From assembly GCA_013824715.1 (NCBI GenBank), contig PNOH01000006.1:1-64000 (forward strand): DNA of 64,000 nt, read 5' to 3'. A program made the position numbers and the translations under genes. Positions 4,667 to 54,158 of the stretch are shown one piece after another; the first letter of the stretch is position 1; each line of letters begins with the position of its first letter. The notes beneath the pieces were generated by a model. That model saw only the letters and a list, made by a program, of their open reading frames with translations. It was not told the DNA's origin and ran no database searches. Source of the DNA: Odoribacter sp. GTDB taxonomy: Bacteria > Bacteroidota > Bacteroidia > Bacteroidales > Prolixibacteraceae.

Positions 4667-5470
4667 ATGAAGCACATATTTTTGATTTTTCTGGCAATCC
4701 TCACCTCATTTCTGGCGTTTGCCCAGGAAAGTGATTCGGTCATTGTTGTGAAAAGTCCCGCCGGAAGGTTGTCCGGGCTGATTGATATTCAGGATTTAGT
4801 AAACGAAGGATACAATTTCTGGGACGAAGAATTTGAAGGCCATTGGGCAGGTGTTGAATTAGGCATTAACGGCTTTGCCAATGCCGATTATAGTATGTAT
4901 TCTTCTACGGATAACAATTTTCTAAAGAATGATCTGCTTCGCTCCAATATCTTAAATCTAAATGTGCTGCAATATTCGAAGGGATTACAGCAAAACCGAA
5001 ATAACATTGGCCTGATAACAGGCCTGGGCTTAAGCCTGCAAAGTTACCGCCTCGATAATAACACGACCATTTCGATTGACGAAAACCGGAAAGTTTATCC
5101 GCAAACTCAGTATTTCGATTCAAATCAAAAATCCAAACTGTCATCCGTTTACCTGGAAGTCCCGTTGCTGGTCGAATTTCAGATTCCTGTCGGTCATAAT
5201 GCCAACCGCCTGTATTTTTCAGCCGGAATAACCGGGGCAAAACGCCTGGAAACACATACCAAACTGAAATACCGGAAAGACGGAAAAAGAGAGAAACTGA
5301 AATCACCCGGCGATTATTCCATTCGTGAATACAAAGTTGCCGGCACTTTCCGTGTTGGTTACCGATGGGTAAACCTGTTCGCAACTTACGATTTAGTTCC
5401 TTTGTTTGAAGATCGCCGGGGACCTGAATTGTTTCCATTTTCTGCCGGAATAAGGCTAATTTCATTCTAA
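4667..5470 (+). CDS. Outer-membrane beta-barrel family protein, copy 2
   Basis: A 267-residue paralogue of the preceding gene: signal peptide (residues 1-19, ending AFAQ), the shared GHWAGVELGINGF segment near residue 60, the shared PLLVEFQIPV strand, and a C-terminal barrel-like tail (FSAGIRLISF). It lacks the long charged insert after the signal peptide found in copy 1. Probably a small outer-membrane barrel protein of unknown function. The 190-base gap to copy 1 holds the terminator and AT-rich simple sequence. Confidence 0.78.
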   Translation: MKHIFLIFLAILTSFLAFAQESDSVIVVKSPAGRLSGLIDIQDLVNEGYNFWDEEFEGHWAGVELGINGFANADYSMYSSTDNNFLKNDLLRSNILNLNVLQYSKGLQQNRNNIGLITGLGLSLQSYRLDNNTTISIDENRKVYPQTQYFDSNQKSKLSSVYLEVPLLVEFQIPVGHNANRLYFSAGITGAKRLETHTKLKYRKDGKREKLKSPGDYSIREYKVAGTFRVGYRWVNLFATYDLVPLFEDRRGPELFPFSAGIRLISF

Positions 5471-6313: not shown

Positions 6314-7696
<1,383 letters not shown>

Positions 7697-7866
7697 TTAG
7701 GGATTGGTAAAATTTCGATGATTATTTGGAAGTCCAAACAATTTCGAGGCTTAAAAATAATACCTATAAACAATGCTTTTGTATGGCAGACTGAATTTAC
7801 GTGTAACACGTAAGGGATTAATCATGAATAGCGGAGACAGGAAAATGAAGATTGGAAATCCACTCG

Positions 7867-7906
7867 CTGAGTAGCGAAGCGTATCGAAGGAAAGCGTATC
7901 GAAGGG
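7867..7906 (+). repeat. Dispersed repeat with internal AAGCGTATCGAAGG duplication
   Basis: The unit beginning CTGAGTAGCGAAGCGTATCG is followed by a second partial copy (AAGCGTATCGAAGG). The reverse complement of 54127-54151 matches the first unit with only two substitutions (T/C and A/G). Both sites are intergenic, so this is a dispersed noncoding family. Confidence 0.65.
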
Positions 7907-8058: not shown

Positions 8059-8712
8059 CTAAATCTCGATGATATTGTTTTTGATGGCGAACTTAACCAT
8101 GTCCACCGTGCTTTTCAGGTTAAGTTTCTGCATGATATGGTTTTTATGCGACTCTACCGTGCGGACACTGATGAAAAAACGGTCGGCAATTTCCTGATTG
8201 GTGTAACTTTCGCCCCATAGTTTGAGAATTTCGATCTGACGGGAACTTAAGTTTCCGATATCGGTATTCTGGTTCATTTCATCGGCTTTCAGGCTCGAAA
8301 TATAGCGGTTCAGCAATAGATGAGTGATCGATTTGCTGTAGTAATCATGTCCGTTTCGCAGAGTATAAATGGCTTCCAGCAGACTGTTTCGATCCGAGTC
8401 TTTCCCCAGAAAACCTTTGGCTCCTGCTTTGATGGTCTTTAGAACAATTTCTTCGCTGTCGATAACTGAAATAATCAGAATTTTCAACTTTGGAATGGTG
8501 ATATTCAACTGTACGATGAGGTTCAGGTTTCGTACCGAAATGTCGTGCATATTCATGATCAACACGTGAATTTGCATTGATTTAAGCTTTTCGGTCAAAA
8601 CATCACGGTTGTCGCAATGAAGCACAATCCGAATATCGGTAATGCCCGACAAAAGTCCGGAAATGCCTTCCAGTACCAGCTTGTGTTCATCAAATAAAGC
8701 GATATCAATCAT
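8059..8712 (-). CDS. LuxR/NarL-type response regulator with non-canonical receiver
   Basis: A 217-residue DNA-binding regulator. Residues 1-120 form a receiver fold (acidic Asp8/Glu9, conserved Ser in LIISV, Lys in GFLGKDS), and about 150-215 form a LuxR-type helix-turn-helix (LSSRQIEILKLW...NQEIADRFF...VRTVESHKNHIMQKL). At the phospho-acceptor position the usual VLLLD is VLIMN, so Asn54 replaces Asp and ordinary phosphorylation is not expected. It starts 3 bases after the stop of the PPDK-like sensor gene on the same strand, so they are almost certainly co-transcribed. Targets unknown. Confidence 0.9.
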   Translation of the reverse strand: MIDIALFDEHKLVLEGISGLLSGITDIRIVLHCDNRDVLTEKLKSMQIHVLIMNMHDISVRNLNLIVQLNITIPKLKILIISVIDSEEIVLKTIKAGAKGFLGKDSDRNSLLEAIYTLRNGHDYYSKSITHLLLNRYISSLKADEMNQNTDIGNLSSRQIEILKLWGESYTNQEIADRFFISVRTVESHKNHIMQKLNLKSTVDMVKFAIKNNIIEI

Positions 8713-8715
8713 TTC

Positions 8716-11700
8716 TTATACAATTATTGCCGAGGTTTTATATATTCCGTCCATTAAAATGGTCAGTGGTTTTTTGAAGCGAACATGTTTGAAATATTTA
8801 GTTTCGCGTATCACTTTTTGATTTTTAAACATCTCCCAACGCACGAAATCAACAGGCGATGAATGTTGCACTGAAAAATAGCCTATGTTCATGGAAGTTA
8901 CATTGTGAAAGAAATGCGAACCGAGCGACGAATCCAACGGATAATTTTCAAGGCTCACCTCCACAATCACTTTGGCATTTGAAATTTGCGACCAGTTTAC
9001 CGGAATTCCCACAAACCGGTCCCTGCTGCCCCATCTGCCAGGCCCAATCAAAACATAATGCCTGTTTTTTTTGATCATCAGATTATTCAGGGAATCAATT
9101 TCAGCCGCCATTTCAATTGTTTTCAGTTTACTAAAGGTTGAAGTATCAACAAAAATTACATCCCGGATATCTTTGATTTCGCCATTACCAAGGCTCGATC
9201 GGGTAAACAAAGCCATTTGCGATTGATCAAGTTGGTCGATAATGATATTTTGCAATACCTGATTGCTAATCAGAGGTTTAATTTGAAGGAGGTAAAATGT
9301 GGGCAAGTCATTTTTTGTACGGTTCAGGTCAACAGCATATTCAATTTCGACCGGAGAACCAAACGCTTCTTTAATCGTGTTCAGCAATATATTGATTGTT
9401 TCAGCCAGAGGAATGTAGTTGTACTGAAGTATATCGGCAAAATTGATGATTCGTGGGCCATAAGTGTTCAACCCTGGCTCAATTCGATCGTTGTTGGGAT
9501 TGTAAACCGAGACACAATGGTTCAGCGTTCCATGTTTTTCAGCTTCGCTGATATCCAGAAGTTTGAGCGCTGCCAATTCACCATTTTCCAAAAAATCGAA
9601 ATCCGTATCCCGGCAATCGAGTGCGTAAAACTGTACCTGTGAATTATTCAGCAAATCCTTGATGCTATGAACTGAAACTTTAGGGTATTTTGGCGAAAAC
9701 CGGAACGATTTCCAGCCATCAACTACGTAAGTTCCCAAACCAACTGCGGCCACAGCAAAACCTTCATCCGGCTTCATGTTGGCCACCGGATAATAGTTGT
9801 ACGACTGTGCTACACCACTGATTTGAGGATAATAATAGTCGCCGTATTGGTTTCCGACCAATTCCTGCAAAACAACTGCCATCTTTTCTTCTTCGACTTT
9901 GTGATGGATGATCGAAAAATAATTGCGGGCTTTCTTTGAGAACGTTGAAGCAAAAACCAGCTTGATAGCAATTGAAATCCGCCCGAGTACAAGTTTTTTA
10001 TTTGTAGCGTGATTGGGAACAATGTAGGTATCAAATACTCCGGCAAAGGGCTGCGTAATGGAATCTTCAGAAGTACTTGACGATCGTACAGCGATGGGTT
10101 TATCAATCTGGGAAACAAAAATTCGTAGCTTTTTCAGGAGCGAAATGGATAAATGAGCATCAACAAAATGGCTTCTCAGTTCGGCATACGAAATGTTCCG
10201 GTCGATGATTTTGTCGAAAAGCTTATTTTTCGAGATGAAATGCTGAAACTCATTCGTGCCGATGACTATAGTAATGGGGGCAAGAATGTTGATCCGGTTA
10301 GCCAAAGTCGGAAATTCGAGGTTGTAGATCAGCGTGTTGATAAATGCCAGTCCACGGCCTTTTCCTCCAAGCGACCCACCTGAAAAAGAAACAATATTTT
10401 TCTCGTCAAGGGTGGATGTTTCATCGAAGCTCAGGATTTTCCCCTTTTTCTTTTCCTCGCGATAGCGTTTAATCGTATCGAGAAAAAATTGCCTCATCTC
10501 ATCCATGTCTTTAAAGGTAGTCGCCGCAACCGGATTGAGTGTCCGTGCCAGTTGTATTTCTCCACGCGACATGAGCCAGAGCGATAACTGATTTTCGGAA
10601 GCATGGAGGAACAACGATTCGTCGGGTACTTCCTGAAGCAGGGTTTCGAATTCGCGCAATGATTTTGCCACTCCGATCCGATTGCCTTCCTTGTCCCTGA
10701 AAACAAAATTTCCAAAGCCCAGATAACTGGTCAGGTAATGTTTGAGGTCGGCAAGTAAGGTTTCCGAATTTTTATTGACGAATGCCACTTCAAGCTCTTT
10801 GGCGATTTCAAGATTTCTATCTTCAGAGGATTGCAGGATAATAGGTAGTTTTGAAATGTGTGACTTTACATACTTAATAAAAGTAACACCAGCATTTTTA
10901 TCTATTTTCCCGCCCCGGTCGAACTCCACATCAGAGATCACACAAAGCAGAAAGTCTTTGTATTTATTGAAGATGGCAATGGCTTCTTCATAATTACGGG
11001 CGAGTAAAATTTTTGGCCTCGACCGCATTTTTGAAATCTTATCCAGTTCGTTCTTCTCAACTTCAGGCAACAATTGCTGTACCTGGCTAAAGACGATGTC
11101 GTACAGGTGCTGAAGGTATTTGGAATAATACAGAGGCGAATCTTCAATAAGTAAAATAACTCTGACCAGGCCAATTTTTGTGTCGTTTTCAACATTTACT
11201 TTGTCTTCAGTTGATTTCACTATAGCAAACAGGATCAGCGAATCGCCATTCCAGACAAAAAGTTTATCAACCGACCGTATGGTAGGTACCAATTCTTCGA
11301 AATACTTGATATCGCTTTTTTTGTTCAGGAGCAAATAAATGGGCATTGATTCATTTTTTGCTTTGATTTGTTCACTTAAAATCACAGGCGCTTCGCGGTC
11401 CATGCCCGCCATGAGGATGACCAGATCAAAATGAGTTGTTTCCATTAAGGCGAGCGCTTCTTCGGCTGATGAAGCACCGGTAATCCTGGGCACCGAAAAA
11501 AGGCTGTACTGGTAGGCTTCGCCCATAAATTTTTCGAAAAAGGAATCTTCGCTTTCGAGTGTAAATGCATCGTACAAAGTGGCCACAAAAAGAATATGCC
11601 TGATTTTGTACTTCATCATGTCGAGATAAATGTACTTATCAAGAGCCTGTTGGTTGAAATACAACTGGAGTGGCTTTTTATTTGTCATCAATGAGTTTCT

Positions 11701-13326
11701 GAAGTCATCGGAGGGATGAATCACCTGAAGCGGTATCCCTTTCCGGTGGATAATTTCACGACCTTTGAAATTATTCAGATAACCACTGATCATCCTGGCA
11801 ATGTTCATCAGTAAATTGCGCTCTTCAACCAGAAATGGCCCCTCGTCTTCTTTCGGAAATTGTTTCAGGTAAAAAATTTCGATGGTTCCCTTTTTATTGT
11901 CTATGGTCACGAAATTTTCCTGCTGTACCCAGTCTGTTTCCAAAAAATTAGGACTGGTGTAAGTTTTACCTTCAAATTTGATTCGCGAAGCTGTAAACTT
12001 AGGATATTGCCACGATTTTGGAAGGATTGCACAAATTTCAAACAAAGTTTCATCTACCGATTTTCCCTCATCAATAATTAAGGTAGTTTGGTTAATGGCT
12101 TTTAGCTCTTTTAACCGTTCGGTGTTTTCGTGGTGCAGCTTATTGAATACATCACGGGTGGCAGAACCGGCAATCAGGTTTGCAAGGTTGATCAGCAAAT
12201 TACGCTCTTCTTTCAGGAATGGGCCTTCGTCAGCATCCTGAAATTGTTTCAGGTAAAAAATTTCAATTGTTCCTTTTTTTCTCCCGGGAGCTTCAAATCC
12301 CTGTGCCATTTTCCATTTGGTTTCGCTGAAATTGCGGCTGATAAAAACATTTTTTCCGTAACTGATGCGGGCTGCCGTATATTCGGGATATTGCCACGAT
12401 TCGGGCAAAATTGAACAGATGATTTGGAGCGACTCTTTGAGTGATTTTCCGGATTGCAGGATCTCCGAAGTCTGGTTTATCCCTTTCAACTCTTTCAGCC
12501 GTTCAGTATTCTTGATGAGTAATTCCTGCAGGGCTTTTTTCGAAGCCATCCCTGAAATTAAAGCAGCAAGATTGTCAATCAGATTCCGTTCTTCGGTTAG
12601 AAAAGGCCCTTCACCGGCTGCAGGAAATTCTTTCAGATAATAAATCTCGATCGCTCCTTTCGACAAATCAGGCGTATCAAACTTCTGTTGCAACCTCCAT
12701 TGGGTTTCCTTGAAATTGAGGCTCGTGAAATTTTTATTTCCATATCTGATGCGTACAGCAGTTTGTCCCGGATACTGCATGGCCTCAGGTAAAAACGAAC
12801 AAATTTCCTGCAACAATTCATCAAGTGAGGTACTTTTCCGGATGATTTCGGTGGTGCGATTTATTCCCTGAAGCTCTTTTTGGCGTTCACCCATATTGAA
12901 GCTTAACTTTTCGAGCTGGATTTTTGAGACAAGGCCAACGAGTAAGCCACCAAGTGTTTTTATGATCAATTCAGTTTCCAGAATTACTGATCCTGAGGAA
13001 TTTGATATGATCTGATCTGACAGAAATAGCTCAATAAGGCCGTGTTTCCGGTCGGGTATATGAAACCCATGTTTCACAACAACCGGTGTTTCTTCAAAAT
13101 TTTGACTCAGGTAGGTTAACCCATTGAATGAAAGACGTATGCAAACTGCATTTTCATTATGAGATTGTCCGACAACGGCATCACAGAAATGCTGTAATGC
13201 ACTATCCATGTCATTTTCCTTTTCGATAATTTCAATTATCCTGAAGGTAAGATGCTCTTTATTAAATAATTGCAATTGATTTTGAGAACTATTTTCTTTT
13301 AATGAAGTATCTGCGTTTTTAGACAT
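8716..13326 (-). CDS. Multidomain sensor fused to PEP-synthase/PPDK ATP-binding domain
   Basis: A 1536-residue cytoplasmic protein with no signal peptide or clear membrane helix. Four sensor repeats lie at about 25-140, 150-270, 275-395 and 405-520; the last three share ICS/ILPES-WQYP, ET-W, G-IEI-YLK-F and EGPFL-EERNLL. A receiver-like domain (about 575-700) has Met639 at the acceptor position; a second (about 720-865) keeps acidic Glu728/Asp729 and a candidate acceptor Asp799. From about 980 it has a PPDK/PEP-synthase N-terminal ATP-binding domain: SGGSLGGKGRGLAF (982-995), AVRSSSTSED (1079-1088) and EIEYAVD...LLQIKPL (1327-1352). The phospho-His swivelling domain and PEP/pyruvate-binding domain are absent; a GPGRWGSRD tail domain follows. 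It is therefore unlikely to be PEP synthase and more likely a nucleotide-dependent signalling protein (inference). It is followed 3 bases later by the LuxR-type gene. Confidence 0.85.
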   Translation of the reverse strand: MSKNADTSLKENSSQNQLQLFNKEHLTFRIIEIIEKENDMDSALQHFCDAVVGQSHNENAVCIRLSFNGLTYLSQNFEETPVVVKHGFHIPDRKHGLIELFLSDQIISNSSGSVILETELIIKTLGGLLVGLVSKIQLEKLSFNMGERQKELQGINRTTEIIRKSTSLDELLQEICSFLPEAMQYPGQTAVRIRYGNKNFTSLNFKETQWRLQQKFDTPDLSKGAIEIYYLKEFPAAGEGPFLTEERNLIDNLAALISGMASKKALQELLIKNTERLKELKGINQTSEILQSGKSLKESLQIICSILPESWQYPEYTAARISYGKNVFISRNFSETKWKMAQGFEAPGRKKGTIEIFYLKQFQDADEGPFLKEERNLLINLANLIAGSATRDVFNKLHHENTERLKELKAINQTTLIIDEGKSVDETLFEICAILPKSWQYPKFTASRIKFEGKTYTSPNFLETDWVQQENFVTIDNKKGTIEIFYLKQFPKEDEGPFLVEERNLLMNIARMISGYLNNFKGREIIHRKGIPLQVIHPSDDFRNSLMTNKKPLQLYFNQQALDKYIYLDMMKYKIRHILFVATLYDAFTLESEDSFFEKFMGEAYQYSLFSVPRITGASSAEEALALMETTHFDLVILMAGMDREAPVILSEQIKAKNESMPIYLLLNKKSDIKYFEELVPTIRSVDKLFVWNGDSLILFAIVKSTEDKVNVENDTKIGLVRVILLIEDSPLYYSKYLQHLYDIVFSQVQQLLPEVEKNELDKISKMRSRPKILLARNYEEAIAIFNKYKDFLLCVISDVEFDRGGKIDKNAGVTFIKYVKSHISKLPIILQSSEDRNLEIAKELEVAFVNKNSETLLADLKHYLTSYLGFGNFVFRDKEGNRIGVAKSLREFETLLQEVPDESLFLHASENQLSLWLMSRGEIQLARTLNPVAATTFKDMDEMRQFFLDTIKRYREEKKKGKILSFDETSTLDEKNIVSFSGGSLGGKGRGLAFINTLIYNLEFPTLANRINILAPITIVIGTNEFQHFISKNKLFDKIIDRNISYAELRSHFVDAHLSISLLKKLRIFVSQIDKPIAVRSSSTSEDSITQPFAGVFDTYIVPNHATNKKLVLGRISIAIKLVFASTFSKKARNYFSIIHHKVEEEKMAVVLQELVGNQYGDYYYPQISGVAQSYNYYPVANMKPDEGFAVAAVGLGTYVVDGWKSFRFSPKYPKVSVHSIKDLLNNSQVQFYALDCRDTDFDFLENGELAALKLLDISEAEKHGTLNHCVSVYNPNNDRIEPGLNTYGPRIINFADILQYNYIPLAETINILLNTIKEAFGSPVEIEYAVDLNRTKNDLPTFYLLQIKPLISNQVLQNIIIDQLDQSQMALFTRSSLGNGEIKDIRDVIFVDTSTFSKLKTIEMAAEIDSLNNLMIKKNRHYVLIGPGRWGSRDRFVGIPVNWSQISNAKVIVEVSLENYPLDSSLGSHFFHNVTSMNIGYFSVQHSSPVDFVRWEMFKNQKVIRETKYFKHVRFKKPLTILMDGIYKTSAIIV

Positions 13327-13342
13327 ATTATTCAGTTTAGCC

Positions 13343-13450
13343 TTAATCTCCAGAACCGGTAACCTTCTTCAAAATTAATACATAATTGGTTCTGTCTGTA
13401 ATAAATGGCGCGAAATCATCCAAAGTAACGGTCTTGGCGTCTCGCGCCAT
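13343..13450 (-). CDS. Possible 35-codon ORF between reductase-like and sensor genes
   Basis: An ATG-started frame encoding a 35-residue peptide (begins MARDAKTVTLDDF, ends KKVTGSGD) in the 147-base gap. The frame stays open upstream into the end of the reductase-like gene, in the +1 frame relative to it, so it could be a true small gene, a frameshifted C-terminal extension, or chance. No homologue is recognised. Confidence 0.25.
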   Translation of the reverse strand: MARDAKTVTLDDFAPFITDRTNYVLILKKVTGSGD

Positions 13451-13473
13451 CAGTCGCAAATTCTCGATACTGT

Positions 13474-14304
13474 TTAAAGGGGGATATTTATTTCGTTACC
13501 TGCATTAATTTTGTGCGGTATTTCTTCTTCATGTCCAAACCGTTTAATCATTTCCCCGAAGTTAGGGTAGTAGGCATTAAAATTATACCCATCAACACAC
13601 ACCACCCTTGTTGAGCCGCAAATACTTACTTTAAAAATGCCATGCCCGGTATTTTTACCGGTATTCTTCAAATACATAATGGCTTGAGTCGGAATATTGT
13701 ATTTGATTGTGTGCGCGCAGGTAGTTTTAATTGTTGTGGCAGGGCCAAAGGCAAAAACCTGATTAATTTTATTTGTTCTAATCGTTTGTGTCATCATCTG
13801 ACAAACCGATCCCTTTTCCCCATAACTCCCATCATCAGTAAGTGTATAAACTTCATCCGAAATTGCTTTAATTTCATTTTCAAGTATAATTCCTTCTTTT
13901 GTCTGTGACGAAAGAATAGTGATGATACGATTTCCGGCAGCATGGAGTGAAGTTAAAACAGGCAGAAGCGGGACAATTCCTTGTTCCCGGCCTATACACA
14001 AGACATTCCCAAAATTTTCGATTTGAGCCGGATAGCCGAAAGGACCTTCGATTCCAACTATTTCGTTTCCCGAATTCAATTCCGCAAAATGCTTTGCAGC
14101 ATCGTTGGCAGCATAAATAATAACGGTAATGGTTTCTTTTTCCGGATCGGTTTTGACTACTGGAACCGAAATTTCAGGTTTGTCTTTTTCACCCTGAAGA
14201 ATGACATATTGACCAATTCGAATCTCATTTATGGCGATTGAAGTCCTGATTTCAAATTTCACCACTTTGTCTGAAATCTTCTTCTTTGCTATGATTTTGT
14301 TCAT
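13474..14304 (-). CDS. NfnA/SudB-like FAD/NAD-binding reductase lacking FeS cysteines
   Basis: A 276-residue member of the ferredoxin-NADP reductase-like family that includes NfnA, sulfide dehydrogenase beta and the dihydroorotate dehydrogenase electron-transfer subunit. Seen: an N-terminal FAD-domain barrel (residues 1-95, EGPFGYPA), a nucleotide-binding segment (VLCIGREQGIVPLLPVL, 101-117, where the family usually has GGGVG) and FAFGPAT (184-190). The C-terminal [2Fe-2S] loop, usually CGxC followed by CVDG, is replaced by GHGIFKVSICG...VVCVDG, leaving only Cys229 and Cys236. The usual NfnB/GltA-like partner is not adjacent. It may be a degenerate or repurposed redox sensor subunit; its position 147 bases upstream of the PPDK-like sensor suggests a functional link (inference). 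Confidence 0.8.
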   Translation of the reverse strand: MNKIIAKKKISDKVVKFEIRTSIAINEIRIGQYVILQGEKDKPEISVPVVKTDPEKETITVIIYAANDAAKHFAELNSGNEIVGIEGPFGYPAQIENFGNVLCIGREQGIVPLLPVLTSLHAAGNRIITILSSQTKEGIILENEIKAISDEVYTLTDDGSYGEKGSVCQMMTQTIRTNKINQVFAFGPATTIKTTCAHTIKYNIPTQAIMYLKNTGKNTGHGIFKVSICGSTRVVCVDGYNFNAYYPNFGEMIKRFGHEEEIPHKINAGNEINIPL

Positions 14305-14411
14305 TTGTCACGATATTTTTTAGAGGTTTTGAAGTTAGATTGATTCGGCCTCAGAAAAAAAATCGCTGCCCGATTTACGTATATCTACTACGTAAAAGAC
14401 GGAAAAAAGAA

Positions 14412-47794: not shown

Positions 47795-48373
47795 ATGAAA
47801 TATATATTGCACTTTCTTCCGCCCAAACCATGGAGGTTTCCGGTATTGCTGATTGCCGGAATCTTCATCGGACTGTTTTTTTTTCTTTTTTATGTGAGCA
47901 AAGCTTATTCTTATTTGTCTGATAATCCAGAAACCTGTGTCAACTGCCACATCATGTCGCCACAGTATGCTACCTGGAACCATAGTTCGCACCGGCGGTA
48001 CACGAACTGTAACGACTGCCATGTACCGCACAATAACGTATTCAACAAGTACTTTTTCAAAGCTAAAGACGGGATGCGCCATGCTTCCATGTTTGCACTC
48101 CGCCTGGAGCCTCAGGTTATTTTTATTCATCAGGCCGGAAAGGATGTGGTTCATCAAAATTGCATCCGTTGTCACTCTAATTTATTGCTCGATCCGAAGT
48201 TGGATTCTTCAGTAAAAAATCAGTCTGTCCATGCTACCGATCGTGTTTGTTGGGAATGTCACCGCGAAGTTCCGCACGGAAGGGTAAATAGCCTGAGCAG
48301 CACGCCTTATGCGAGGGTTCCGTTGCCCGAAAGTCCGGTGCCTGATTGGTTGAAAAAAGCAATGGCAGATTAA
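47795..48373 (+). CDS. nrfH: Cytochrome c nitrite reductase small subunit
   Basis: The membrane quinol dehydrogenase that feeds electrons to NrfA. A 192-residue NapC/NirT-type tetraheme protein with an N-terminal helix (about 16-35) and four haem motifs: CVNCH (48-52, followed by the axial Met in IMSP), CNDCH (72-76), CIRCH (123-127) and CWECH (152-156). It is followed by nrfA 26 bases later. Confidence 0.96.
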   Translation: MKYILHFLPPKPWRFPVLLIAGIFIGLFFFLFYVSKAYSYLSDNPETCVNCHIMSPQYATWNHSSHRRYTNCNDCHVPHNNVFNKYFFKAKDGMRHASMFALRLEPQVIFIHQAGKDVVHQNCIRCHSNLLLDPKLDSSVKNQSVHATDRVCWECHREVPHGRVNSLSSTPYARVPLPESPVPDWLKKAMAD

Positions 48374-48399
48374 TAAAAACAAAAAATAAATACACTCTT

Positions 48400-49920
48400 A
48401 TGAAACCCATTACACAAATTATTGAGAATCGGCCATGGATGGCCTGGCTCATCTTTCTGGTCACCATCATTATAGTTTTTATAGTCGGTTTACTGGCCTC
48501 ATCGGTGATTGAGCGGCGTGCTGAAGCTGTTTTTGTGAATGTTCCGAAAACGGAAATCTCGCAATTTGAACCCCGAAATTCGGTTTGGGGCGAAAACTTT
48601 CCGCGCGAATTTCAGTCGTATTCCCAGACTGCCGATACCACATTTGCCAGTAAATACAATGGGAGCCAGATGATAGACATGCTGGAAGTTGAACCCCGCT
48701 TAGTCGTCCTTTGGGCCGGATATGGTTTTTCGAAAGATTACAGCCAGGGGCGCGGACATTTTTACGCTGTCGAAGATATCCGGAATTCATTGCGTACCGG
48801 CGGACCGACCAACGAAACCGATGGACCTCAGCCTTCAACTTGCTGGACATGCAAAAGCCCCGACGTTCCGCGCATGATGCAGGAAGAAGGGGTTACTGAA
48901 TTTTACAAGGGAAAATGGTCGCGACTGGGAGCCGAAGTAGTTAACCCGATTGGCTGCGCCGATTGTCACGACTCAAAAACCATGAACCTGCATATTTCGC
49001 GTCCGGGATTGATTGAAGCTTTTGAGCGCCAGGGCAAAGATATTACTAAAGCTTCGCACCAGGAAATGAGGACTTTGGTTTGTGCCCAGTGCCATGTGGA
49101 ATATTATTTCGACAAACACAAAGCGGAAGGCGCTGCTTACCTGACTTTTCCGTGGGATAAAGGGTTGAGCGCCGAAGCCATCGAAAAATATTACGATGAA
49201 ATTGAATTCTCTGACTGGACACATTCCATGAGTAAAGCGCCGATGCTGAAAGCACAACATCCGGAGTACGAAACGTATTCACTGGGCATTCATGCTGAAC
49301 GCGGAGTTTCGTGCGCCGACTGCCACATGCCGTATAAAAGTGAAGGCGGCCAGAAATTTACCGATCACCATATCCAGTCGCCACTGAATAATGTGGCCAA
49401 TTCGTGCCAGATTTGCCATCGCGAAGAAACAGCTAAACTGATCCAGAATGTATATGACCGTCAGGATAAAATTATCGAAAACCGAAACAAATTGGAAGAG
49501 TTGTTGGTTTATGCACATGTGGAAGCCAAAAAAGCATGGGATTTGGGTGCGACTGAAGCTGAGATGAAAGATATTCTGATGGGGATCCGACATGCACAGT
49601 GGCGCTGGGATTTCGCTGCTGCCAGTCATGGGGCATCCTTTCATGCTCCGATTGAAACCAGCCGGATCATTTCATCCGGAATTGCTATTGTTGGAGAAAC
49701 CCGTATCAAACTGGCCCGATTACTGGCCAGCAAAGGATTCAATCAGGAAATTCCTTATCCTGATATTGCCACCAAAGCTAAAGCACAGGAGTTTATTGGA
49801 CTGGACATGAAAAAACTTCGGGAAGAGAAGTCAACCTTCCGGAAAAACCTGGTTCCCCAATGGATTGAGGCTGCTGAAAAGCGCGAAGCCGGATACGACA
49901 AAAATGGAATACGACAATAA
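48400..49920 (+). CDS. nrfA: Ammonia-forming cytochrome c nitrite reductase (catalytic subunit)
   Basis: A pentaheme enzyme reducing nitrite to ammonium. About 506 residues from the ATG at 48400, which begins the N-terminal anchor helix (about 13-34); an upstream in-frame ATG at 48346 lies inside nrfH. Haem motifs: the catalytic CWTCK (148-152, Lys-ligated), CADCH (186-190), CAQCH (228-232), CADCH (305-309) and CQICH (336-340). The retained N-terminal helix suggests a membrane-anchored form. Functions with NrfH. Confidence 0.97.
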   Translation: MKPITQIIENRPWMAWLIFLVTIIIVFIVGLLASSVIERRAEAVFVNVPKTEISQFEPRNSVWGENFPREFQSYSQTADTTFASKYNGSQMIDMLEVEPRLVVLWAGYGFSKDYSQGRGHFYAVEDIRNSLRTGGPTNETDGPQPSTCWTCKSPDVPRMMQEEGVTEFYKGKWSRLGAEVVNPIGCADCHDSKTMNLHISRPGLIEAFERQGKDITKASHQEMRTLVCAQCHVEYYFDKHKAEGAAYLTFPWDKGLSAEAIEKYYDEIEFSDWTHSMSKAPMLKAQHPEYETYSLGIHAERGVSCADCHMPYKSEGGQKFTDHHIQSPLNNVANSCQICHREETAKLIQNVYDRQDKIIENRNKLEELLVYAHVEAKKAWDLGATEAEMKDILMGIRHAQWRWDFAAASHGASFHAPIETSRIISSGIAIVGETRIKLARLLASKGFNQEIPYPDIATKAKAQEFIGLDMKKLREEKSTFRKNLVPQWIEAAEKREAGYDKNGIRQ

Positions 49921-54121: not shown

Positions 54122-54158
54122 ATGCTCCCTTCGACACGCTTCGCTGCTCAGGGAGCAT
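54122..54158. repeat. Palindromic repeat ATGCTCCCT...AGGGAGCAT
   Basis: 9-bp arms (54122-54130, 54150-54158) flank a sequence whose reverse complement matches the dispersed repeat at 7867. It lies 8 bases after the GH8 stop and may double as its terminator. Confidence 0.65.

Follow-up and report, generated by a model that had tools for sequence, protein, structure and literature searches.

We analyzed a 64,000-nt stretch of DNA (the window) from Odoribacter sp. assembly GCA_013824715.1 (contig PNOH01000006.1, positions 1–64,000), part of a 4.6-Mb genome that is 98.9% complete. Our subject is a run of minus-strand genes encoding a 1536-residue sensor-like protein, a LuxR-type regulator that lacks the usual phosphorylatable aspartate, an NfnA-like flavoprotein and a glutamate dehydrogenase (GDH). 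The original prediction had singled out three of these, the GDH gene aside, as adjacent minus-strand genes of a possible signalling system; their positions and lengths, and the 3-base gap that separates the sensor stop codon from the start of the regulator, proved correct. The locus is laid out as follows, in window coordinates.

14388..14404: candidate operator before the NfnA-like gene, one mismatch to YTMCGTRNNNCACGKAA, 84 bp from the gene start
13474..14304, minus strand: NfnA/PyrK-like flavoprotein without iron–sulfur (FeS) CxxC ligands, 276 aa (NCBIfam, PDB 4ylf, alignment with the true NfnA of locus L033)
8716..13326, minus strand: sensor protein, 1536 aa
11740..13260, minus strand: four GAF-like sensor repeats, aa ~23–529 (repeat self-search, AlphaFold2, Foldseek)
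11254..11598, minus strand: first receiver-like domain, aa 577–691, phospho-Asp lost
10723..11160, minus strand: second receiver, aa 723–868, full active site E728, D729, D799, S833, K852
9265..10374, minus strand: PPDK_N ATP-grasp domain, aa 985–1354, with K989, R1081, E1087, D1088, Q1154, E1327, E1329 and Q1348 invariant
8719..9129, minus strand: C-terminal domain without a Pfam family, aa 1400–1536, with GxGRWG and G(S/T)HFF motifs and His1471 invariant
8059..8712, minus strand: LuxR/NarL-type regulator, 217 aa, Asn54 at the phospho-site
7797..7813: operator-like palindrome TTACGTG-N3-CACGTAA, ~130 bp upstream of the gdhA start
6314..7666, minus strand: glutamate dehydrogenase gene gdhA, 450 aa, the proposed main target (PF00208, E = 1e-89)

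In the window, gdhA comes after the regulator, across a gap of 392 bp versus 133 bp in the nearest relative (locus L003). A 19-mer, TAGCGAAGCGTATCGAAGG, occurs twice in the window, at 7872–7890 and, with two mismatches, at 54128–54146. Given the longer gap and this repeated sequence, a small repeat may have inserted between the regulator and GDH genes.

AlphaFold2 models, run in two parts (aa 551–1536, mean pLDDT 83.9; aa 1–560, mean pLDDT 85.2), gave the domain order of the sensor: four alpha/beta repeats, two receiver folds, a mainly helical linker, an ATP-grasp domain and a C-terminal alpha/beta domain. Four sensor repeats had been predicted, and with repeat 3 as the query the other three were indeed retrieved, at 57, 57 and 28% identity. 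Foldseek matched the repeats to GAF-PHY and phosphodiesterase GAF proteins; no Pfam family, GAF included, convincingly covered them in the 21 members scanned. The repeats recur beside PAS and histidine-kinase domains in other Bacteroidota proteins (L177–L180; in L181 beside PAS only), which identifies them as a signalling input. HisKA and HATPase domains were not found in the sensor by Pfam.

The next part of the protein was also described correctly: there are two receiver-like domains with a PleD-like fold, and the phospho-accepting residue (Asp799) is present only in the second. Below, the core denotes the receiver–receiver–ATP-grasp part plus the C-terminal domain, and conservation was counted over 177 distinct full-length cores. 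When the core model was compared with the PDB by Foldseek, the tandem-receiver protein PleD ranked first and pyruvate phosphate dikinase (PPDK; 1ggo) ranked tenth. Pfam reported a receiver match at aa 614–675, below its cut-off. A mycobacterial large GDH, which Foldseek ranked first for the sensor, was disregarded (probability 0.41, TM-score 0.09).

Pfam placed PPDK_N at aa 985–1354 (E = 9.6e-38). It did not find the PEP-utilizers/phospho-His domain (PF00391) or the phosphoenolpyruvate (PEP)-binding domain (PF02896) in the sensor, in keeping with the claim of a PPDK-type ATP-binding domain that lacks its phospho-His and PEP/pyruvate partners. Both domains are seen in the organism's own PPDK, a separate and complete protein of 907 aa that is the only PF00391 protein in the genome. 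The top NCBIfam matches of the sensor, to PEP synthases, prodigiosin ligases and rifamycin phosphotransferase, each scored far under the respective cut-off. Because the PPDK_N part matched the profile of the own PPDK only weakly, the ATP-grasp assignment rests on Pfam and on PEP-synthase/Rph structures. In the linker of the core, DUF5752 gave a weak match (E = 6.6e-4, under the cut-off). One correction concerns the C-terminus: the sensor continues beyond the ATP-grasp, and residues ~1400–1536 make up a conserved domain in which GxGRWG and G(S/T)HFF motifs are invariant and for which no Pfam family was found in 25 members scanned. The likeness of the latter motif to GSH/TSH prompted the idea of a divergent PPDK phospho-His domain; an hhalign profile comparison gave no match, and we do not claim it. 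Nor did Pfam find a nucleotidyltransferase domain in the window sensor.

Residue conservation separates the parts of the core. K989, R1081, E1087, D1088, Q1154, E1327, E1329, Q1348 and H1471 are each present in 177 of 177 cores. We take the ATP-grasp residues among them to correspond to ATP-binding positions of PEP synthase, judging at the level of motifs and by alignment with 5hv6. In the second receiver, E728 is found in 177 cores, D729 in 165, D799 in 175, S833 in 175 (Thr in the other two) and K852 in 175. In 157 of the 177 cores, the equivalent phospho position of the first receiver (638) holds T, L, I, C, V or S. This pattern suggests that the ATP-grasp and the second receiver are functional and the first receiver is not. 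The invariant ATP-grasp residues and C-terminal His indicate that the ATP-grasp is probably a working catalyst, and His1471, in G(S/T)HFF, could serve as a phosphoryl carrier.

The regulator consists of Response_reg and GerE domains (Pfam). As predicted, it lacks the usual phospho-site: Asn54 stands there, with the acidic pair, Ser and Lys retained. A complete receiver active site was found in 0 of 33 aligned partner regulators; L083 and L012 probably represent a single contig, so that the number aligned may really be 32. The Asp is missing in 31 of the 33, replaced mostly by N, also by T, S, H, I or V, and the two that carry it (L018, L093) lack other active-site residues. Since the regulator has no Asp, the sensor would have to act on it by contact or by some other modification.

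Pairing of sensor and regulator is not specific to this strain, a point on which the original prediction could have failed; it extends across the genus and several Bacteroidales families. A LuxR gene adjoins the sensor in 20 loci, the window's included, directly downstream on the same strand in 19 and divergent in L025. We also fetched 80 named loci (1.31 Mb), 79 of them with a core gene; of these, 8 have a LuxR gene immediately downstream and on the same strand, and another 5 have one nearby on the opposite strand. The pair persists down to 44–50% regulator identity. Conserved gene order and residues thus rule out chance or a strain artefact.

The order sensor–regulator–GDH was seen in 18 of 24 loci examined; the other six had no GDH match in the available stretch. 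We aligned 17 intergenic regions (L083 was left out; the pair-bearing L087, L091 and L127 lie outside the 24-locus set). Over the 190 bp that precede gdhA, no 17-column window is better conserved than TTACGTG-N3-CACGTAA, with a mean identity of 88% in the arms and 47% in the other columns. In L088 the two arms carry matching changes (TTCCGTG/CACGGAA).

The position of this motif is nearly exclusive. Without mismatch, YTMCGTRNNNCACGKAA occurs at a single place in its own 4.6-Mb genome, 7797–7813. Across 31 genomes, exact searches gave 23 matches at 17 places, and the reversed control gave 12 matches. Ten of the 17 places are upstream of this GDH, one precedes nfnAB and six are elsewhere. In the 80 named loci, 28 of which have a GDH neighbour, the exact motif appeared only in L083, L084, L085 and L088; five named loci have sensor, regulator and GDH together, and these are four of them. 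Same-genus genomes of the 31-genome set that lack the pair had the site at GDH in 0 of 5 cases. Of the same-genus genomes that carry the pair, four (G003, G007, G009, G015) lack an exact site there, G003 having a version with one mismatch. In G011 the site remains at gdhA even though transporter genes separate gdhA from the regulator.

The place before nfnAB comes from another family. In G040 the only exact copy (L226:1501–1517) lies ~70 bp upstream of a true nfnA, recognized by its CxxC motif and PF10418 and followed by an nfnB-like gene; the sensor–regulator pair of G040 sits elsewhere in the genome (L018). Within the sets examined, then, regulator and operator occur in the same genomes, and the operator accompanies GDH in one family but nfnAB in another. 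From this we infer that the regulator is the natural owner of the putative operator.

In 8 of the 12 loci with the NfnA-like gene (the window, L003, L004, L007, L008, L009, L013 and L019), a version of the motif with one or two mismatches precedes that gene at the same place; two of the other four have less than 100 bp upstream. By eye, a further CACGTAA-like half-site is visible behind the motif. No motif was found upstream of the sensor gene (best 4–6 mismatches; 26 loci with up to 260 bp upstream of each, L090 left out), and the 3.8 kb examined around the true nfnAB of this genome (L033) contained none either. In L086, a gene that resembles dihydroorotate dehydrogenase (PF01180) and lies a few kb from the sensor has a one-mismatch motif (5241–5257) upstream.

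The 276-aa NfnA-like protein shows full-length similarity to NfnA/PyrK FAD/NAD-binding subunits (NCBIfam; PDB 4ylf, E = 2.5e-38). It had been described as a reductase-like protein without its usual FeS ligands, and we agree: the CxxC region is lost, and only the last cysteine of the motif is kept (CVDG). The FeS-binding family PF10418 gave no match in this protein; it did match the true NfnA of L033, encoded elsewhere in the same genome and followed by NfnB, as well as L104 and L226. The NfnA-like gene is evolving fast. It was found beside the sensor–regulator pair in 12 loci only, the window's included. The proposed three-gene system was drawn too narrowly: gdhA is a fourth and more constant member.

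The core itself is a widespread, uncharacterized family tied to GDH. Matches to the sensor were found in 57 of 61 relatives' genomes (the own genome included) and in 38 of 198 Bacteroidota genomes (including the own genome and four with sensor repeats only). In a Bacteroidaceae-like family, 109 of 121 genomes were positive, most with one core-only gene of ~990–1000 aa. Core relatives also occur in records labelled Spirochaetes, Acidobacteria, Cloacimonadota, Desulfobacterales and others. Outside the window's own order, at least 28 of 32 near-full-length core genes sit within 5 kb of GDH by coordinates, in at least 21 of 25 genomes, and at least 26 of the 32 lie within 520 bp of a GDH domain match. 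With 1–5 GDH genes per genome, we estimate that a random gene would fall that close to GDH about once in 100–200. Within the own order, 21 of the 28 highest-scoring matches, mostly sensor-bearing, are GDH-linked, versus 7 of the 51 others.

Genes within four positions of the core in the 79 named core loci included GDH (28), KorB-like (13), LuxR (13), KorA-like (11), NfnB-like (8), NuoE-like (5), NuoF-like (5) and NfnA (4); one member of each neighbour cluster was checked with Pfam and agreed, and these counts are lower bounds, as many contigs are short. Among 23 same-genus genomes, 16 have the sensor-bearing form; those without it are G001, G005, G006, G013, G017, G020 and G022. The higher-scoring GDH type (E < 1e-88, the type that adjoins the regulator) is present in 15 of the 16 (the fragmented G015 being the exception) and in 1 of the 7 others (G005).

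Several relatives depart from this layout. The own genome has a core-only paralogue (G000:C26:26138–29062; L002, L068) with 47% identity and no GDH neighbour, and core-only genes similar to it are found in most searched genomes of the family. Two divergent core proteins stand in close tandem in L092, L095, L096, L101, L106, L108 and L115, the first having an N-terminus longer by about one repeat or more; three of these tandems (L092, L101 and L108) lie between KorAB-like genes and GDH. More distant relatives (L183–L187) show GDH clusters with a PPDK_N protein of ~580 aa and a sensor–PPDK_N protein of ~1065 aa. Proteins of 1063–1066 aa in L182 (3446–6643), L184 (7646–10834) and L187 (3578–6769) combine a sensor repeat, PPDK_N and a C-terminal nucleotidyltransferase domain, and those of L184 and L187 are two genes away from GDH. 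The latter arrangement recalls the nucleotidylating regulators of glutamine synthetase. Elsewhere in the window, 47795–49920 encodes a cytochrome c nitrite reductase pair, a NapC/NirT-type cytochrome and a cytochrome c552. A Bacteroidetes promoter consensus matched the window twice, not above chance and in neither case near the genes of the system.

The domains, conserved residues, gene order, GDH linkage, and the motif with its near-exclusive position are direct observations. We consider it reasonably probable that together they mark a dedicated signal-transduction module for GDH and associated NAD(P)H/ferredoxin flavoproteins, working through the aspartate-less regulator. The GAF-like repeats of the sensor would respond to some metabolic or redox cue, which the receiver pair, the PPDK-type ATP-grasp and the C-terminal domain would convert into an ATP-dependent state, either a conformational change or phosphoryl/pyrophosphoryl transfer, possibly via His1471. 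This state would be handed to the adjacent regulator by contact or by modification away from the usual Asp, and the regulator would bind TTACGTG-N3-CACGTAA upstream of gdhA and the NfnA-like gene, setting their transcription. What we infer is that the regulator binds the motif and is controlled by the sensor, and likewise the nature of the signal, whether transcription is raised or lowered, and the chemistry.

NAD(P)H is common to GDH and Nfn, and the Kor-like enzymes often encoded nearby in relatives use 2-oxoacids and ferredoxin; a likely cue would therefore be 2-oxoglutarate/glutamate, ATP/AMP, PEP/pyruvate or redox state. The link to redox or metabolite sensing that was first suggested gains support through the GDH, Kor-like, Nfn and NuoE/F-like neighbours. 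Signalling to the regulator by nucleotide-dependent conformational change or pyrophosphoryl transfer, the other part of that suggestion, may or may not occur. A bolder version, which we hold only tentatively, is that a PPDK-type ATP-grasp replaces the histidine kinase: GAF-like sensors would gate a (pyro)phosphorylated state on His1471 or Asp799, and the Asp-less LuxR regulator would read it to control GDH and Nfn-type electron transfer. The ancestral core, present in Bacteroidota and in records assigned to several other phyla, would then be a general ATP-dependent controller of glutamate metabolism.

Several observations weigh against a module centered on the regulator. In L089 the motif is weak, with 3 of 7 arm pairs. 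For five pairs (L018, L020, L087, L091, L127), the fetched stretch shows neither a GDH neighbour nor a motif within one mismatch. With two mismatches allowed, the window gives 4 matches versus 2.5 expected, which is not above chance, and the co-occurrence of pair and GDH within the genus partly reflects ancestry. Core-only genes near GDH in other Bacteroidota mostly lack a LuxR neighbour, so the original job of the core may not involve the LuxR regulator.

In a different explanation, the core acts on the GDH enzyme itself, by covalent modification or binding, as its relatives would in genomes that lack the regulator. The LuxR gene and the operator would then have been added later in this genus as a layer of transcriptional control, one that the sensor need not govern. 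The phylum-wide linkage fits, with at least 28 of 32 core genes near GDH and at least 26 within 520 bp, as do the GDH/PPDK_N clusters of L183–L187; a C-terminal nucleotidyltransferase (L182, L184, L187) could modify an enzyme. Yet the window sensor has no such domain, and its pairing with the regulator is tighter than expected of an accessory gene. A 1996 Journal of Bacteriology title reportedly concerns trans-acting genes downstream of B. thetaiotaomicron gdhA, a lead weakened by the layout of Bacteroides-like genomes. In four of these (genus unconfirmed), proteins of 375/382 and 258 aa are encoded directly downstream of that type of gdhA, and the core is ~4–6 kb away, beside a second GDH. 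The 1996 effect may thus be unrelated to the core, and this layout counts against the explanation. On balance we regard it as unlikely.

An orphan histidine kinase might instead phosphorylate Asp799, making the second receiver the real input, with the GAF-like repeats only modulating and the regulator constitutive. The active site of the second receiver is complete in nearly all 177 cores, and core-only relatives do without GAF-like repeats, as this idea would have it. But it leaves the retention of the sensor–regulator pair unexplained, and no histidine kinase appeared among the classified neighbour clusters, a weak objection given that most neighbour genes are unclassified. We find it quite improbable. 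That the sensor is a metabolic enzyme, PEP-synthase-like or a ligase, we think hardly credible. Its ATP-grasp residues are invariant and its best NCBIfam matches, weak as they are, are enzymes; against this stand the fused receivers and GAF-like repeats, and the paired regulator and motif. A PEP synthase in particular was rejected, as Pfam detects no phospho-His or PEP/pyruvate domain and the genome has a separate complete PPDK. The earlier preference for signalling over metabolism is therefore well supported, by that separate PPDK, the repeats in PAS/histidine-kinase proteins, the degenerate regulators (33/33) and the shared DNA motif.

To our knowledge, the regulation of ammonia assimilation in Bacteroidota is poorly understood. 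A regulator-based module for GDH, the reading that we prefer, would supply one GDH with a candidate sensor, a candidate regulator and a candidate DNA site, and would assign a probable process to a large uncharacterized family. If true, it would show how receivers that have lost phosphorylation can be wired, here by pairing with a non-kinase ATP-binding protein.

Open-licence PubMed Central full text yielded no published account of the sensor, of its pairing with the regulator, of the link to GDH or of the operator. In the portion available, Maule et al. 2015 (PMC4395418) report a strong association of Asp-less receivers (ALRs) with pyruvate phosphate dikinase effector domains and take the matter no further; the association fits the first receiver of the sensor. 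ALR regulators such as RitR resemble ours in joining a receiver with Asn at the phospho-site to a DNA-binding domain; RitR differs in being OmpR-type, and the available portion of the same paper describes no such partner sensor, GDH link or operator family. Like PEP synthase, PPDK and rifampin phosphotransferase (PF01326; 5hv6, 1ggo), the sensor has an ATP-grasp with motifs intact; unlike them, it has no detected phospho-His/PEP domains, carries receivers before the ATP-grasp and has a C-terminal domain of no known family behind it. The 276-aa protein is similar to NfnA/SudB/PyrK (4ylf, 5jca) over its full length, yet it lacks the FeS CxxC, has no adjoining NfnB and evolves fast. The repeats share the fold of tandem GAF sensors (phytochromes, PDE5/6) by Foldseek, and differ in the missing Pfam GAF match (21 members). 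There is an organizational parallel with two-component systems that use NarL/LuxR regulators (NarL, VraR), in which a sensor likewise adjoins a receiver–helix-turn-helix regulator and a palindrome lies upstream of a likely target; here there is no histidine kinase and the regulator has no phosphorylatable Asp. The sensor plus receiver–helix-turn-helix regulator is thus a kind already known, and there is a real chance that this one represents a new class, should its ATP-grasp prove to be a signalling catalyst.

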